Assembly (NCBI GenBank): GCA_002842215.1
Contig: PHCC01000024.1
Coordinates: 62,001-126,000 of the forward strand
Length of the DNA stretch: 64,000 nt
DNA from: Betaproteobacteria bacterium HGW-Betaproteobacteria-9
GTDB lineage: Bacteria; Pseudomonadota; Gammaproteobacteria; Burkholderiales; Burkholderiaceae_C
Direction: 5' to 3'
This document shows, piece by piece, positions 6,577 to 28,309 of the stretch. Made by a program: the position numbers and the translations under genes. Under the pieces are notes generated by a model. The model ran no database searches and was not told where the DNA came from. It saw nothing but the letters and a program-made list of their open reading frames with translations. Numbering within the stretch: the stretch's first letter is position 1; each line of letters begins with the position of its first letter.

Positions 6577-8748
6577 TCAGGCCGTCCGGGCCAGCCCCAG
6601 CGTGAACAGCACGCCATCGGCCACGTTGCGCGCCTGCACCGTGCCGCCCATCTTGCCCATGTAGGTCTTGACCACGAACAGGCCCTGGCCGCGGTGGCCT
6701 TCCGTCGGCGGCAGGTCGGACACGCCGTAGTCAAAAATGCGCGGCAGCAGCGCCGCGCCAATCGCCGGCCCCTGGTTGTGCACCGCGATCCAGGCCTGTT
6801 GCGGATCGGCCGTCAGCGACAGGGTGATGGCCGTGCCCGGTGTGCGGCAGCGCTGGGCGTTGCTCAGGAGGTGCGTGACCACGTCTTCCAGCGCGAAGCC
6901 ATCGGCCCGCACCTGCAGGCCCGCCAGCGCGGTGTTGTCGGCGTCCAGATAGCGCACGCCGTCGATGCCGGAGAAGTGCGCGTTGTCCGCGATCTGCCGC
7001 AGGAAGGCGTGGATGTCCAGCCGCTCGCTGGCCATGTCCGCGGCGACGATCGCCTCGCTCGGTGAGGCGTGGCCGTACAGCACCTTGACGGCCTGCTGCA
7101 TGCGCTGCACGTAGCGGTGGCTCGGGTCCTCGGGCCGGCCGTGCAGCACCATCAGCGACTGCAGTGGCGACATGATTTCGTGGCCCACGGCGTGCCACAT
7201 GTCCAGCTCCTGCTGGGCGCGCTGGTGCTCGCGCGAGATGTCGTTCTTCACCCGCTGCAGCAGGTCGGACAGGCCCCCGGCCAGGATACCCAGCTCGTCG
7301 CTGCCGCGCAGATCGCTCACGTCCAGATCGGCGAGCCGGTTTTCCGGCAGGGGCGCGTGCACGTTGTACGACACCGCCGCCGCGCGCCGGGTGAGCTGGG
7401 TCACGCGGCGGATGAGCCCGATCTCGATCAGCAGCCAGGCCAGCACGATCGCGCCTAGCATGGCCCCGACCAGCCAGAGCAGGCGCGTGGCGACGATGCT
7501 GATGCGGCGCTCCACCGTGCGCACGTCGCCCGTCAGCGTGATCTCGAAGCGGCCCACCGGCGTGGCCACGGTGTCCACCGCCTGGAGCGGGGGCACCTGG
7601 GTGTCCACCGGCAGCAGGCCCACGATGTGGCGCACCCAGGGCGATTCGCGTTCCCCCGGGTCGGCGCTGCCGTGCAGGGTCTGCTTGGCGGCGTTGCGCG
7701 TGAGGCCGGGCGCGAGGGAACTGGCCACGCGCTGGATCTGCAGGCGCTCGCCCGGCAGCAGGGACTGCGCCAGCTCGGCCAGCGCGGACGGCTCGGCCTG
7801 GCGCGGCGCGGCGGTGTCGAGCAGTTGCGCGGACGCGGGTCCCACGATCTGCAGCCCGACGCGGATGTCGGCGAGATCGGCCGGCGGCCAGACCACCCGC
7901 GCCGGAGGCAGGTGGGCCACGCGCAGGGCGTCCGAGGGCAGGCGGATGGAATAGAAGGCGCGGCGCGGGCAGTCGGGCTGCGCCTGGTCCGCGTCGGCGC
8001 AGTCCTGGCTTTGCCAGACCCAGCCGCGGAAGTCCCGCACCGGGCGGGTCTTGCGTTGCAGCGTGTCCGGCTCCGCGCCTGCCTCGGGTGCCCGAAAGCC
8101 CGCCCAGCGCCCCACCAGCGGCGCCTGCGGCTGGTTACGGGCGCTGGCCACCAGCTCCAGCGGCGCGATCCAGCGCGTGGTCTGGCCCCGCAGCGTCAGG
8201 TGCACCCGGGCGCGGTGAACGTCCTGCAGCTCCAGTTGCCCCCGTTGGCGGCCCACCAGCGGCGGGCTGACGAAACTGCCCGCGAGGTAGACGAAGCCGC
8301 CCGCGTAGGGGTTGCTGCCGATCGCCGCGCAGGCGCTGGAGCCGTCCTGGAACAACACGGCGCAACCCGAGCTCTCCAGCGCCTGCTGGGCCTTGAACGG
8401 GTCGTCGAAGTCGAGCGCGCCAAAGGGCAGCAGCAGCGGTGAGAGTTCGCCGCCTTGGCCGGGCGCGGCCGGCACGTGCTGCGGGTTGAGCAGGGCGAGT
8501 TGACCGGCCGGGTGGCGCAGGCGCGCGAGGATCTCCGACTGGGTCTTGCGAAAACTGTTCTGGTAGTTGAGGTAGCTGCGCTCCTTTTCGTGCCGCAGCA
8601 CGGTCAGCGCCAGGCCCAGCGTGGCCAGCACCAGCAGCGCAAAGACGGCGCGAAAGAAGATGCGCCGCCGAAAGCCGGCCAGCCCCAGGCGCGGCACGCC
8701 GAGCTTGCCCATGCGAAAGCGCGGCAGGTCGAGGCCCGGCACCTTCAT
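6577..8748 (-). CDS. Membrane sensor histidine kinase
   Basis: A 723-residue sensor kinase. The first membrane segment (about residues 29-50) and the second (about 422-446) bracket a periplasmic region of some 370 residues that I do not recognise and that carries four Cys (129, 140, 250, 260). A HAMP-like linker follows, then the phosphoacceptor box GHEIMSPLQSL with His523, an N-box LLSNAQR at about 627-633 and a short G-box RGQGLFVVK near 686. The start codon overlaps the stop of the response regulator by ATGA, so the two are translationally coupled. The ligand is unknown. The open frame continues far upstream, but only this part is supported. Confidence 0.88.
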   Translation of the reverse strand: MKVPGLDLPRFRMGKLGVPRLGLAGFRRRIFFRAVFALLVLATLGLALTVLRHEKERSYLNYQNSFRKTQSEILARLRHPAGQLALLNPQHVPAAPGQGGELSPLLLPFGALDFDDPFKAQQALESSGCAVLFQDGSSACAAIGSNPYAGGFVYLAGSFVSPPLVGRQRGQLELQDVHRARVHLTLRGQTTRWIAPLELVASARNQPQAPLVGRWAGFRAPEAGAEPDTLQRKTRPVRDFRGWVWQSQDCADADQAQPDCPRRAFYSIRLPSDALRVAHLPPARVVWPPADLADIRVGLQIVGPASAQLLDTAAPRQAEPSALAELAQSLLPGERLQIQRVASSLAPGLTRNAAKQTLHGSADPGERESPWVRHIVGLLPVDTQVPPLQAVDTVATPVGRFEITLTGDVRTVERRISIVATRLLWLVGAMLGAIVLAWLLIEIGLIRRVTQLTRRAAAVSYNVHAPLPENRLADLDVSDLRGSDELGILAGGLSDLLQRVKNDISREHQRAQQELDMWHAVGHEIMSPLQSLMVLHGRPEDPSHRYVQRMQQAVKVLYGHASPSEAIVAADMASERLDIHAFLRQIADNAHFSGIDGVRYLDADNTALAGLQVRADGFALEDVVTHLLSNAQRCRTPGTAITLSLTADPQQAWIAVHNQGPAIGAALLPRIFDYGVSDLPPTEGHRGQGLFVVKTYMGKMGGTVQARNVADGVLFTLGLARTA

Positions 8749-24529: not shown

Positions 24530-25894
24530 ATGCAAGCCCATCCCTCCGGCCCAGCAAAACCCCTCTGGCGCATCTACCTGGTGTTTCTCGCGCCCATGGT
24601 GCTGTCCAACTTCCTGCAAAGCTTCTCGGGCACCCTCAACGGCATCTTCATCGGTCAGATGCTCGGCACCCACGCGCTGGCGGCGGTGTCGGGCATGTTC
24701 CCGATCTTCTTTTTCTTCATCTCGCTGGTGATCGGCCTGGGCGCGGGCGCGTCGGTGCTGATCGGCCAGGCCTGGGGCGCACGGGAGCCCGAGAAGGTCA
24801 AGGCCATTGCGGGCTCGGCGCTGGCACTGGGGGCCTTGATCGGCATCGTGGCGGCGCTGCTGGGCAGCGTGTTTGCGCGCGAGGGGTTGCAGGCACTGGG
24901 CACGCCCGCGGACGTGCTCGACGACGCCACCGCCTACGCGCGGATGATGATGCTGCTCATGCCGCTGCTGCTGGTGGTCATCCTCTACACGCAGCTGCTG
25001 CGCGGCGTGAGCGACACCGTGACCCCGCTGCTGGCCCTGTTGCTGTCCACCGGCCTGGGCCTGGTGCTGACGCCCGCCCTGATCAAAGGCTGGCTGGGGC
25101 TGCCGCCCATGGGCATCCAGAGCGCGGCACTGGCGGGTTTTGTGTCCCAGGCGGCGTCGCTGGGCTTCCTGGTCTGGCGCCTGCGGCGCAAGGGCAGCGT
25201 GCTTGCGCCAGACCGGATGCTGCTCCAGTCCCTGCGGCTGGACGGCAAGATACTGACCCAGGTGATGCGCATCGGTCTGCCCACCGGGCTGCAGATGGTG
25301 GTGATCTCGATCTCGGAGCTGGTGATCCTGTCGCTGGTCAACGGCCACGGCTCGCAGGCCACGGCGGCCTACGGCGCGGTGACGCAGATCGTCAACTACG
25401 TGCAGTTTCCCGCGCTGTCCATCGCCATCACCGCGTCCATCCTCGGCGCGCAGGCCATCGGTGCGGGCCGGGTGGAGCGCCTGGGGGCCATCCTGCGCAC
25501 GGGGCTGTGGATGAACGTGTGCGTGACCGGCTCGCTGGTGCTGCTGGGCTACGCGCTCTCGCACGGGATGCTGGGCCTGTTCCTCACGCAGCCCGAGGTG
25601 CTGGCGCAGGCCGAACACCTGCTGCACATCATGTTGTGGAGCATGCTGCTGTTCGGCTTCCAGTCGGTGGTGGGCGGCATCATGCGCGCCAGCGGCGTGG
25701 TGCTGATGCCGGTGGCGATTTCCATCGCCTGCATCCTGCTGGTGCAGCTGCCGGTGGCCTACGGGCTGAACCAGCGCCTCGGGCTGGAGGGCGTGTGGAT
25801 GGCGTTCCCAGTGACCTACGCGGCCATGCTGGCGCTGCAGACCGGCTACCACCAGCTGGTGTGGCGCTTCAAGAAGATCGAGCGTCTCGTTTGA
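24530..25894 (+). CDS. MATE family efflux transporter
   Basis: A 454-residue inner-membrane multidrug/toxin extrusion protein with about 12 hydrophobic helices. The N-terminal half begins with LWRIYLVFLAPMVLSNFLQ, typical of the family, and contains GIFIGQMLGTHALAAVSG; the second half repeats the fold from about residue 245. It presumably exports cationic compounds using H+ or Na+. The substrate is not inferable. The gene starts 43 nt after the DUF2239 stop, so cotranscription is possible. Confidence 0.9.
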   Translation: MQAHPSGPAKPLWRIYLVFLAPMVLSNFLQSFSGTLNGIFIGQMLGTHALAAVSGMFPIFFFFISLVIGLGAGASVLIGQAWGAREPEKVKAIAGSALALGALIGIVAALLGSVFAREGLQALGTPADVLDDATAYARMMMLLMPLLLVVILYTQLLRGVSDTVTPLLALLLSTGLGLVLTPALIKGWLGLPPMGIQSAALAGFVSQAASLGFLVWRLRRKGSVLAPDRMLLQSLRLDGKILTQVMRIGLPTGLQMVVISISELVILSLVNGHGSQATAAYGAVTQIVNYVQFPALSIAITASILGAQAIGAGRVERLGAILRTGLWMNVCVTGSLVLLGYALSHGMLGLFLTQPEVLAQAEHLLHIMLWSMLLFGFQSVVGGIMRASGVVLMPVAISIACILLVQLPVAYGLNQRLGLEGVWMAFPVTYAAMLALQTGYHQLVWRFKKIERLV

Positions 25895-25908: not shown

Positions 25909-25986
25909 GATCCGCCGCCGGGCCGCCCCAAGGCGGATCAGCCCCCTCGGGGGGCAGCGACCCGCGCAGCGGCGGAGCGTGGGGGC
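25909..25986 (-). repeat. Palindromic repeat, type B, reverse
   Basis: Reverse-oriented copy with GGGCCGCCCCAAGGCGG, the CCCCCTCGGGGGG hairpin and a CCGCGCAGCGGCGG segment ending GTGGGGGC. It lies between the MATE gene and the RNase P RNA and reaches the region where that RNA's -35 would be. Confidence 0.8.
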
Positions 25987-25996
25987 ATTTCCATTG

Positions 25997-26008: not shown

Positions 26009-26251
26009 GTGAAGCGCGCCAGGCCGTCGCTGGCACAGCCCGCAAGGGAACCCGAAAGGGAGTGCTGGAGGAACGTCCGGACTGCACAGGACAGCGTAGG
26101 AGGTAACACCTCTCCACCGACAAGCCGCAAGGCCCTAAGGTGAGGATCAGAGCAACAGAGACGAGCCGATTCAGTTCGGGTGAAACGGGCAATCTCTACG
26201 CGCAGCAATACCAAATAGGCCAACAAAATCCGGCGTATCGGCGCGCTTCAC
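26009..26251 (+). ncRNA. rnpB: RNase P RNA, compact form lacking P15-P18
   Basis: RNA subunit of the ribozyme that trims tRNA 5' leaders. P1 is a perfect 12-bp helix (26009-26020 with 26240-26251). P2 reduces to GGCC/GGCC (26022-26025, 26218-26221). P3 (26031-26067) is capped by two tiny hairpins with GCAA and GAAA tetraloops. P4 pairs 26073-26081 with 26229-26236, including the bulged U of conserved region I (GAGGAACGTCCGGACT). The specificity domain has a P9 with a GCAA loop (26124-26133), AACAGAGACGAG, GGGTGAAACGGGCAA and CCAAATAGG. After CCAAATAGG the sequence goes straight into conserved region V (ACAAAATCCGGCGTATC). The P15-P18 segment that normally separates them, with the tRNA-CCA-binding loop, is absent. 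Family identity is firm; whether it is the active rnpB is the open question. Confidence 0.85.
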
Positions 26252-26272
26252 ACTATTTTCGGATCCGGCGGT

Positions 26273-26591
26273 TCAACGGCCGCCGTCCACCAGCCAGCGC
26301 ACAAAGCGCTCGGCCTCCCCGGCGCTCAGGCGCTCATGGGCCGGCACACCGCCAAACAGGTGGTGTTCGCGCAGATGCCCGATCTTTCCGGCAATCTGAT
26401 CTTCCTGTCCTTTGAGTGGCACGTACCAGTCGGCCAGCTGTGCGATGGTCGGCGCCTTGCCGCGCGGCGGGGTGCCGTGGCAGGACAGGCAGCCCTTGTC
26501 GAGGGCCAGGTTCATGCTGGCCAGCGCAGGCAGGGTTGTCGGCAAAGGCCAGTGCGATCCCCACCGCGAGGCGGCCTGTGGCGCTTTTCAT
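26273..26591 (-). pseudogene. c-type cytochrome with a frameshift in the signal peptide
   Basis: The mature part encodes a small class I cytochrome c, with heme-binding CLSCHG, helices, and GEAERFVRWLVDGGR at the end. An ATG at 26591 begins MKSATGRLAVGIALAF, a good signal-peptide start, but its frame runs out of the cytochrome frame. Removing one T from the TTT at about 26546-26548 would join them into a normal signal (AVGIALALPTTLPALA) and mature protein. So either the gene is broken by one base or the base is a sequence error. The usual axial Met before the last helix is replaced (GGVPAHERLS). It follows the NUDIX/MBL gene by 29 nt. Confidence 0.65.
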
Positions 26592-26620
26592 GCGTACTCC
26601 CTGCCTTGGTGCCACTGGGG

Positions 26621-28309
26621 CTACAGGTTGAAGCCGCCCAGGCTCTGGATGCGCTCGACGTGCGCGAGCAGGGAGCGTTTGGCCACCGGCCACAGGCGTT
26701 CGGGCACGTCGTCGTAGGCGAGCTTCACCCAGTCGTCCATCGTGCCTTCGGGCAACGCCTGCATGGCACGCGCCACCTTGGCTTCGCGCGCGAGGCGATG
26801 GGCTTTCAGGTGCGCGATGGCCGCGCGGGCACCACCGTGCTCGGGCGCGCTCGGGTTGTCGGGCGTTTGCCTCAGGTCGCCCAGCACGTAGCCGTGCGCG
26901 GGCAGGATGAAGTCGACACCGTGCGCCTCGCACAGCCGGTCCAGCTTGTCCAGCGATTCGAGGTAGGCGCCCATGTGGCCGTCGGGCGGGTCGATCACGG
27001 TGGTGCTGCCGTTGAGGATGTGGTCGCCGCTGAACAACAGGCCGTCTTCTTCGAGCAGCAGGCAGAGGTGGTTGGCCGCGTGGCCCGGGGTGTGCACGGC
27101 CTGCAGCGTGTGCGTGGCGTCGCCCTGGCCTTGCAGCACCAGGCGTTCGCCGTCGGCCAGTGCGCGCTCGGGCGTGAAGCGGCTGTTCTCGCGCGCCGTG
27201 GGTGCGCTGGGCAGGCCCAGGACAGGCGGGTTGTTGGCGCACATGCTTTGCAACCGTGCCGCGCCCGGCGAATGGTCGGGGTGTGAATGCGTGCAGACGA
27301 TGGCGCGAATATCGCCACCCGCAGCGTGCCAGAGGCGCTCGATATGTTCCGGGATGTCCGGGCCGGGGTCGATGGCGATGTGGCCGCTCACCGGGTCGCC
27401 CACCAGGTAGCTGTTGGTGCCCGGGCCGGTCATGAAACCGGGGTTGGGTGCGGTGAGCCGCTGTACGTTCTTCAGCAGCGGCACCGGGCGCTCGGTCTGC
27501 CACGCCAGCTCGTGCACGATCTGACCGCCGGGGCTGACCAGGGCCAGTTCGCCAAACGGCGGTTCGTGCTCCATGTGGCGCGATTCGTGGCCGTTCATCA
27601 GGCCGGCGCGCGGGCAACTGGTGAACAGCGGTTCATCGTTGACCGCACACGCGTCCAGCACCGCCTGCACACTCGGGTAGGCCTGCAGCCGCTCCAGCGT
27701 GCGGATGGTCGGGAAGATGATGAAGAAGTCGCCCGCCGCGTGGCGCGCCAGCGCGTCGGCCGGGCGCACCCAGACCGGCTCGAACTGCTCGGACTCGTCG
27801 GCCACCGGCTCCTGGCCCTCGGGCATGCGCGCCACCAGAAAGGGCACGTCGAAACGGCGCGGCAGGTCGCGGTCGGTGATCCAGTGCGCGAGCACGAAGA
27901 CCTCGGCGCCGGACAGCGTCAGGCCCTGAGCGGTGCACTGTGCGTTGAACGGGGTCTTGCGGTCGAGCGAGGCGATGTCGGCGGTGCCCAGGTGGGTGCC
28001 GTCGGCGCGGCGCGCCAGCAGGATGCCCAGCTCTTCGAAGCTCTCGCGGATGGCGGCGATGGCCTGCGTGAGGTGCAGGTCGCTCTGTGTGGCGCGGCGG
28101 GTGGACTGGCCGTGGGCCAGCGCGTCGGCGGCGTCGATGCCTCCGCCCGGGAACACGTAGGCACCGGGGGCGAAGCTCGCCGTCATGGAGCGGCGCGTCA
28201 TGAGCACCTCGACGCCGTCGGCGCCGTTGCGCAGCAGCAGCACGGTGGCGGCGGGGCGCACGGCAGCGGGCGTGCGGGCGGGGTGCAGGAGTTGGGATGA
28301 GCGGACCAT
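26621..28309 (-). CDS. NUDIX hydrolase / metallo-beta-lactamase-fold fusion protein
   Basis: A 562-residue two-domain protein. The N-terminal half (about residues 15-250) is a NUDIX hydrolase with VFPGGGID and the Nudix-box core RESFEELGI. The C-terminal half (about 280-560) is a metallo-beta-lactamase-fold hydrolase with the zinc motif THSHPDHSPGA, HTPGHAANHLCLL and FSGDHIL. The MBL half resembles the LACTB2 type. Substrates could be a nucleotide or CoA derivative and an ester or RNA, but none is shown. The ATG at 28309 is directly followed by recognisable Nudix sequence. Confidence 0.85.
   Translation of the reverse strand: MVRSSQLLHPARTPAAVRPAATVLLLRNGADGVEVLMTRRSMTASFAPGAYVFPGGGIDAADALAHGQSTRRATQSDLHLTQAIAAIRESFEELGILLARRADGTHLGTADIASLDRKTPFNAQCTAQGLTLSGAEVFVLAHWITDRDLPRRFDVPFLVARMPEGQEPVADESEQFEPVWVRPADALARHAAGDFFIIFPTIRTLERLQAYPSVQAVLDACAVNDEPLFTSCPRAGLMNGHESRHMEHEPPFGELALVSPGGQIVHELAWQTERPVPLLKNVQRLTAPNPGFMTGPGTNSYLVGDPVSGHIAIDPGPDIPEHIERLWHAAGGDIRAIVCTHSHPDHSPGAARLQSMCANNPPVLGLPSAPTARENSRFTPERALADGERLVLQGQGDATHTLQAVHTPGHAANHLCLLLEEDGLLFSGDHILNGSTTVIDPPDGHMGAYLESLDKLDRLCEAHGVDFILPAHGYVLGDLRQTPDNPSAPEHGGARAAIAHLKAHRLAREAKVARAMQALPEGTMDDWVKLAYDDVPERLWPVAKRSLLAHVERIQSLGGFNL

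Follow-up and report, generated by a model that had tools for sequence, protein, structure and literature searches.

The window analysed here, a stretch of 64,000 nt, is part of the genome of Betaproteobacteria bacterium HGW-Betaproteobacteria-9 (assembly GCA_002842215.1, designated here as G000; contig PHCC01000024.1, our contig 41). The genome is 5.26 Mb long in 57 contigs and is rated 100% complete and 0.12% contaminated. An rnpB gene coding for type A RNase P RNA is located in the window, with a gene for a MATE transporter (24530-25894) upstream and a cytochrome c gene followed by a NUDIX/metallo-beta-lactamase-like gene downstream. The last of these (26621-28309, minus strand) encodes a protein of 562 aa in which a NUDIX domain is fused to a metallo-beta-lactamase domain and a winged helix. 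Directly upstream of rnpB, at about 25911-25990, there is a GC-rich intergenic stretch (CCCCCTCGGGGGGCAGCGA...) that is partly absent in the relative G059. In a promoter and terminator scan, nothing resembling a promoter was seen, and the single terminator-like site lies on the minus strand, at about the level found in shuffled sequences. The Rfam model RF00010 (class A, bacterial RNase P RNA; gathering score 100 bits) was matched by cmscan at 26011-26253 over model positions 1-367, with 98.9 bits and an E value of 4e-31. The match is 1.1 bits below the gathering score and does not pass this cut-off, and the default scan therefore returned an empty list. The features of the gene are as follows.

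26009..26251, plus strand, rnpB as assembled, gene for type A RNase P RNA with RF00010 match, 243 nt from P1 to P1
26009..26020, plus strand, 5' strand of P1, 12 of 12 positions complementary to 26240-26251
26022..26028, plus strand, 5' strand of P2, GGCCGTC, with its 3' partner inside the missing block
26068..26080, plus strand, conserved region I and 5' side of P4, limits approximate, from the RF00010 alignment
26081..26203, plus strand, specificity domain with flanking joins, limits approximate, ungapped against L019
26204..26222, plus strand, conserved AGCAATACCAAATAGG and CCA with the beginning of P15/P16, ending at the breakpoint
26222..26223, plus strand, breakpoint, 103 nt absent in comparison with L019 (genome G042) and 136 nt in comparison with L051 (genome G059)
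26223..26235, plus strand, conserved region V and 3' side of P4 (ACAAAATCCGGCG)
26240..26251, plus strand, 3' strand of P1, perfect 12-bp pairing with 26009-26020

The perfect 12-bp P1 described in the first-pass annotation is confirmed. The P4 core, composed of conserved regions I and V, is kept and is identical to that of the nearest relative, L019, in the model and pairwise alignments. The specificity domain, which had been called complete-looking, aligns with L019 without any gap, as expected for a class A RNA. The same annotation had described a sequence running straight into region V where type A RNAs enter P15, and this is indeed how the gene is assembled, with CCAAATAGGCCA followed by ACAAAATCCGGC and nothing between them. 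The 4-bp P2 (GGCC/GGCC) that had been proposed is fortuitous, and the true 3' strand of P2 (RCGGTC) belongs to the missing block. At the supposed 3' site, TAGGCC is found in 46 of 50 compared loci regardless of whether the 5' strand of P2 has GGCC or GACC, and its GGCC is therefore not a part of P2.

The block absent in comparison with L019, the nearest of the 50 compared loci, is a single clean stretch of 103 nt. It contains the 3' side of P15, L15 with its GGU, P16, P17, P18, J18/2, the 3' strand of P2, and P19; the helix names in the block are those that we assume from comparison with the model alignment and from the usual nomenclature. The P15-P18 region is absent, as first described, but the loss extends beyond it; the earlier estimate was about 100 nt missing at 26221, and the breakpoint lies between 26222 and 26223. 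Of the 103 alignable missing columns, 54 are at least 98% conserved among 47 aligned relatives (L002 and the contig-end loci L032 and L033 were left out of this alignment). The GGU of L15, a class A feature, is kept in all 48 relatives whose 3' part is complete and is absent in G000. The J18/2-P2 motif and the 3' partner of P2 (GACGGTC/GGCGGTC) are likewise absent in G000, and each is present in 47 of these 48 relatives. The P2 helix, J18/2, and P18, all of which belong to the definition of class A, are therefore lacking in the G000 gene. A repeat-driven deletion was rejected, as direct repeats of at least 8 nt were not found around the block in L019 and none was visible at the block edges in the alignment. 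A strong DNA hairpin behind skipping of the stretch is also unsupported, as the fold of the missing stretch has a z value of -0.49.

The position of the gene is ancestral. Its flanks are 94.9% and 90.3% identical to those of L019 in G042, and 94.8% and 93.0% identical to those of L051 in G059, in the same order in both cases, and the rnpB genes of both relatives at this place are intact. The match at 26009-26251 is the only one for RF00010 in the G000 genome; a second full rnpB, for which a genome-wide search had been recommended, was not found in the assembly by this model. RF00011 had no match in G000 at an E value of 1, which is a weak test, as RF00011 is unmatched in E. coli too. The suggestion that the short gene is a paralogue does not agree with its synteny with the full-length genes of relatives and with its being the sole copy found. 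It is a native type A rnpB at its ancestral locus, from which a clean block is missing.

The retained sequence is the same as L019 in 243 of 245 positions. Both substitutions form a compensatory pair in the specificity domain, and this pair is found in L046 also. In no position does the retained sequence have a base not seen in the 47 aligned relatives, and so it shows no sign of decay or adaptation; adaptation of the retained RNA to the loss was rejected on the same ground. The loss is therefore very recent or technical. In the genus, RF00010 was matched in 60 of 67 genomes, and 57 of the 67 reach the cut-off; the seven genomes with no match are 55-82% complete. The 50 compared loci were taken from 60 matches in the genus other than the own one, the other 10 being full-model matches. 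In three genomes, G000, G053, and G060, the match falls short of the cut-off, and since the matches in the last two stop at contig ends, internal loss occurs in G000 alone among the matched genomes of the genus. In the family, the short form was found in one of 399 genomes, namely G000 itself. In G052, rnpB was matched in full twice, and one of these matches (L002, G052:C24:14242-14592, 339.9 bits) looks gammaproteobacterial and is perhaps a contamination of that genome.

The partners of RNase P RNA in G000 are ordinary. The rnpA gene is an open frame of 164 aa with 46.9 bits for PF00825 (cut-off 22.3) and adjoins a gene that we take to be yidD-like. The tRNA genes were checked for encoded CCA, as had been proposed, and CCA is encoded in all 42 distinct tRNA sequences predicted by ARAGORN at the loci of 44 tRNA genes; tRNA genes without CCA, which would be expected beside an RNA of archaeal type M or eukaryal kind, were not among them. 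The tRNA-Ile(GAT) and tRNA-Ala(TGC) genes are not among the 42 distinct sequences either. These two are usually located inside rRNA operons, and given their absence, the rRNA-operon sequence of G000 may be unassembled. As a replacement for the ribozyme, the protein-only RNase P HARP (TIGR03875) was rejected, as its best match in G000 has 11.1 bits and an E value of 0.55 in comparison with a cut-off of 95.3, and no match passes. A detached P15-P18 piece was searched for in G000 at the DNA level with a 129-nt stretch of L019 that covers the block. Of the 13 matches obtained, one corresponds to 23 retained nt and the other 12 have E values of 1.1 or higher; no such piece was found at this level, at which a strongly diverged one would be missed. 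Plasmid and phage records contained no rnpB match, with the reservation that records near G000 may be hidden there.

Loss of parts of the P15-P18 region is already known from other RNase P RNAs. In comparison with type A RNA as modelled in RF00010, the G000 gene has the same P1, P3, P4 with regions I and V, specificity domain, locus, and RnpA, but lacks the GGU of L15, P16, P17, P18, J18/2, the 3' strand of P2, and P19. No bacterial RNA lacking all of P15-P18 together with J18/2 and half of P2 was found in the open-licence literature searched. The L15 site for tRNA CCA is missing, as in G000, in archaeal type M RNAs (PMC4919922) and in eukaryal RNAs, from which P5, P6, and P15-18 are absent as well (PMC13022451). 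Those RNAs are old and adapted, and a review links them to tRNA genes without CCA, whereas G000 has a bacterial RnpA, tRNAs with encoded CCA, and an unadapted RNA. Cyanobacterial RNase P RNAs are described as having no GGU and preferring substrates without CCA (PMC4264200). Helices and the UGG motif are naturally missing in RNase P RNAs of CPR bacteria too, with UGG absent in 23 of 35, P16 and P17 absent in many, and nearly the entire P15 absent in one (PMC8172020). The CPR RNAs are reported as strongly diverged and come from circularised genomes (PMC8172020), while that of G000 is an ordinary gene with a clean deletion. The RNase P RNA of Pyrobaculum is also shortened, but in the opposite manner, as nearly all of its specificity domain is lost and its catalytic domain kept (PMC4919922).

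Further short forms were searched for with a pattern in which two canonical motifs flank a spacer of no more than 30 nt. It recognised 12 loci in the genome_contigs set, none in the viral_contigs set, and in the 399 family genomes that of G000 only; diverged short forms escape it. Eleven of the 12 loci are not RNase P RNA genes, as they had no match at the gathering score nor at an E value of 0.1 with laxer filters. The twelfth is the rnpB of a Rokubacteria MAG (JACPSW010000013.1; L056 at 7191-7481, L140 at 1501-1791), which is 291 nt long, has 226.5 bits, and is the sole one found in that genome. In its genus, a match was obtained in two of three genomes, the MAG included, and the sister G463 has an intact rnpB of 368 nt (L141), almost identical outside the loss and P19. 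In the MAG gene, as in that of G000, the loss is clean and takes away P15-P18 together with J18/2 and the 3' strand of P2; the MAG gene differs in that P19 is kept, about 77 nt are lost (291 in comparison with 368 nt), and the score is higher. The reading of the G000 gene applies equally here, as this deletion is again clean and isolated, and the gene of the sister is intact. Since the pattern selects for the P15-P18 region, two losses in the same place are no evidence of a hot spot.

Quality of the assembly around the gene was compared with that of related genomes. The cytochrome c gene next to rnpB (26273-26620, minus strand), a small c-type gene barely above the cut-off of Pfam PF00034, has a broken frame due to a 2-nt loss near 26540, 318 nt away. 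This loss falls into the signal-peptide part and is absent from both G042 (L019) and G059 (L051). In a survey of the 64-kb window, three frameshift sites were flagged, of which 19399 and 34455 are apparently outside the coding part and the third is the cytochrome c gene; internal stops were flagged in 10 ORF rows of the window, and other genome pairs were similar. In a 248-kb survey, based on 168 matched genes in either direction, G000 had three candidate frameshifts and one internal stop, and the neighbour G001, in the reverse comparison, two and three, respectively. With counts so similar, a generally indel-prone assembly is unsupported as the cause. Matches for tmRNA and 44 tRNAs in G000 span the whole models. 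A first indel count, based on a crude ORF mask, was noisy and was discarded; several presence/absence differences of 84-125 nt between G000 and G001 were seen in it, and these may come from a dispersed small repeat.

An assembly or sequencing fault is the explanation of the gap that we favour over its rivals, and we consider its chances to be about even. RNase P RNA is deemed essential in nearly all organisms (PMC8172020), and the loss is clean and uncompensated; the syntenic relatives are intact, the missing block holds many highly conserved columns, and the short form was found in this genome alone among the 399 of the family. The ordinary rnpA and tRNA CCA, with no HARP above the cut-off, argue for the same cause, as does the second defect in the nearby cytochrome c gene. 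Moreover, deletions in this region are costly, as catalytic efficiency of E. coli RNA without P15-17 is reduced almost 50,000-fold and the kobs of E. coli RNA without P18 over 3,000-fold (PMC5839562), and the G000 RNA has neither of these, nor J18/2 and half of P2. The almost 50,000-fold figure is an RNA-alone result, as restated in PMC13022451, and the loss may therefore be softened by RnpA. A technical cause has against it that neither a repeat apt to mislead an assembler nor a strong DNA fold marks the junction in L019. Normal quality of the assembly elsewhere also counts against it and would suit better a real deletion that destroys or cripples rnpB, with an intact copy unassembled (as a tandem copy, on a plasmid that was lost, or within a gap) or present in part of a mixed population. 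This is rather unlikely, in spite of the 57 contigs, the two missing tRNA genes, from which some sequence seems to be unassembled, and the undecayed and unadapted remainder, which fits a very recent event. The best match of the block outside the 23 retained nt has an E value of only 1.1, a second RF00010 match is missing, the weak RF00011 test is negative, and the plasmid and phage records, as far as near ones are visible in them, have no rnpB.

Another possibility is that the deletion is real and that the 243-nt RNA itself works as RNase P, with P4, the specificity domain, and RnpA, in a CCA-independent manner similar to type M or eukaryal RNAs. Being the sole copy found in a complete-looking genome, with P1, the P4 regions, the specificity domain, and RnpA all kept, it has parallels in the eukaryal RNAs without P5, P6, and P15-18 (PMC13022451), in the CPR RNAs without UGG, P16, P17, or, in one case, nearly all of P15 (PMC8172020), and in the similar loss of the Rokubacteria MAG. 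We nevertheless regard this as decidedly improbable: the 3' strand of P2 and J18/2 are gone too with no compensating change, all the distinct tRNA sequences keep CCA, the measured costs of deleting P15-17 or P18 are large (PMC5839562), and the Rokubacteria case likewise has an intact sister. Eukaryal and archaeal RNase P RNAs, moreover, depend on several extra proteins. The minimal bacterial RNase P RNA proposed in the first-pass annotation is thus a possible reading but not a favoured one, because the data are accounted for by a fault of the assembly or by a deletion that is clean and recent. A split RNase P RNA, with the P15-P18 piece made elsewhere and joining in trans, has a precedent in E. 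coli, where some inactive fragments whose deletions do not overlap formed active complexes once mixed (PMC11143913), but as the best DNA-level match of the block in the rest of the assembly has an E value of 1.1, it is extremely unlikely. Equally hard to credit is a paralogue in decay beside a normal rnpB, which would agree with the short length and the score below the Rfam cut-off, but not with the ancestral syntenic place, the sole copy found, and the lack of decay outside the gap.

Under the favoured explanation of a technical fault, the block of about 103 nt would most likely be present in the living organism and would have been lost in sequencing or assembly, probably when sequences were falsely joined at this place, around which nothing is adapted. 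The full RNA in the cell would then work normally with RnpA, with the GGU of L15 pairing to the 3' CCA of tRNA, J18/2 close to the active site, and P18 docked on P8.

Should the gap prove technical, it is a warning that the gene for an essential ribozyme may seem drastically short even where the genome is rated 100% complete; the completeness rating failed to reveal the gap in rnpB. Should it instead be real and the RNA functional, the need for P15-17, P18, and J18/2 in bacterial type A RNA in vivo would be challenged, and the organism would be a natural one-step test of CCA-independent recognition of pre-tRNA. That this betaproteobacterium lives on a 243-nt RNA with RnpA only, and that a Rokubacteria lineage independently lost nearly the same block, is very unlikely; if both were true, the modules for CCA recognition and P18 would be losable in a single step in nature.
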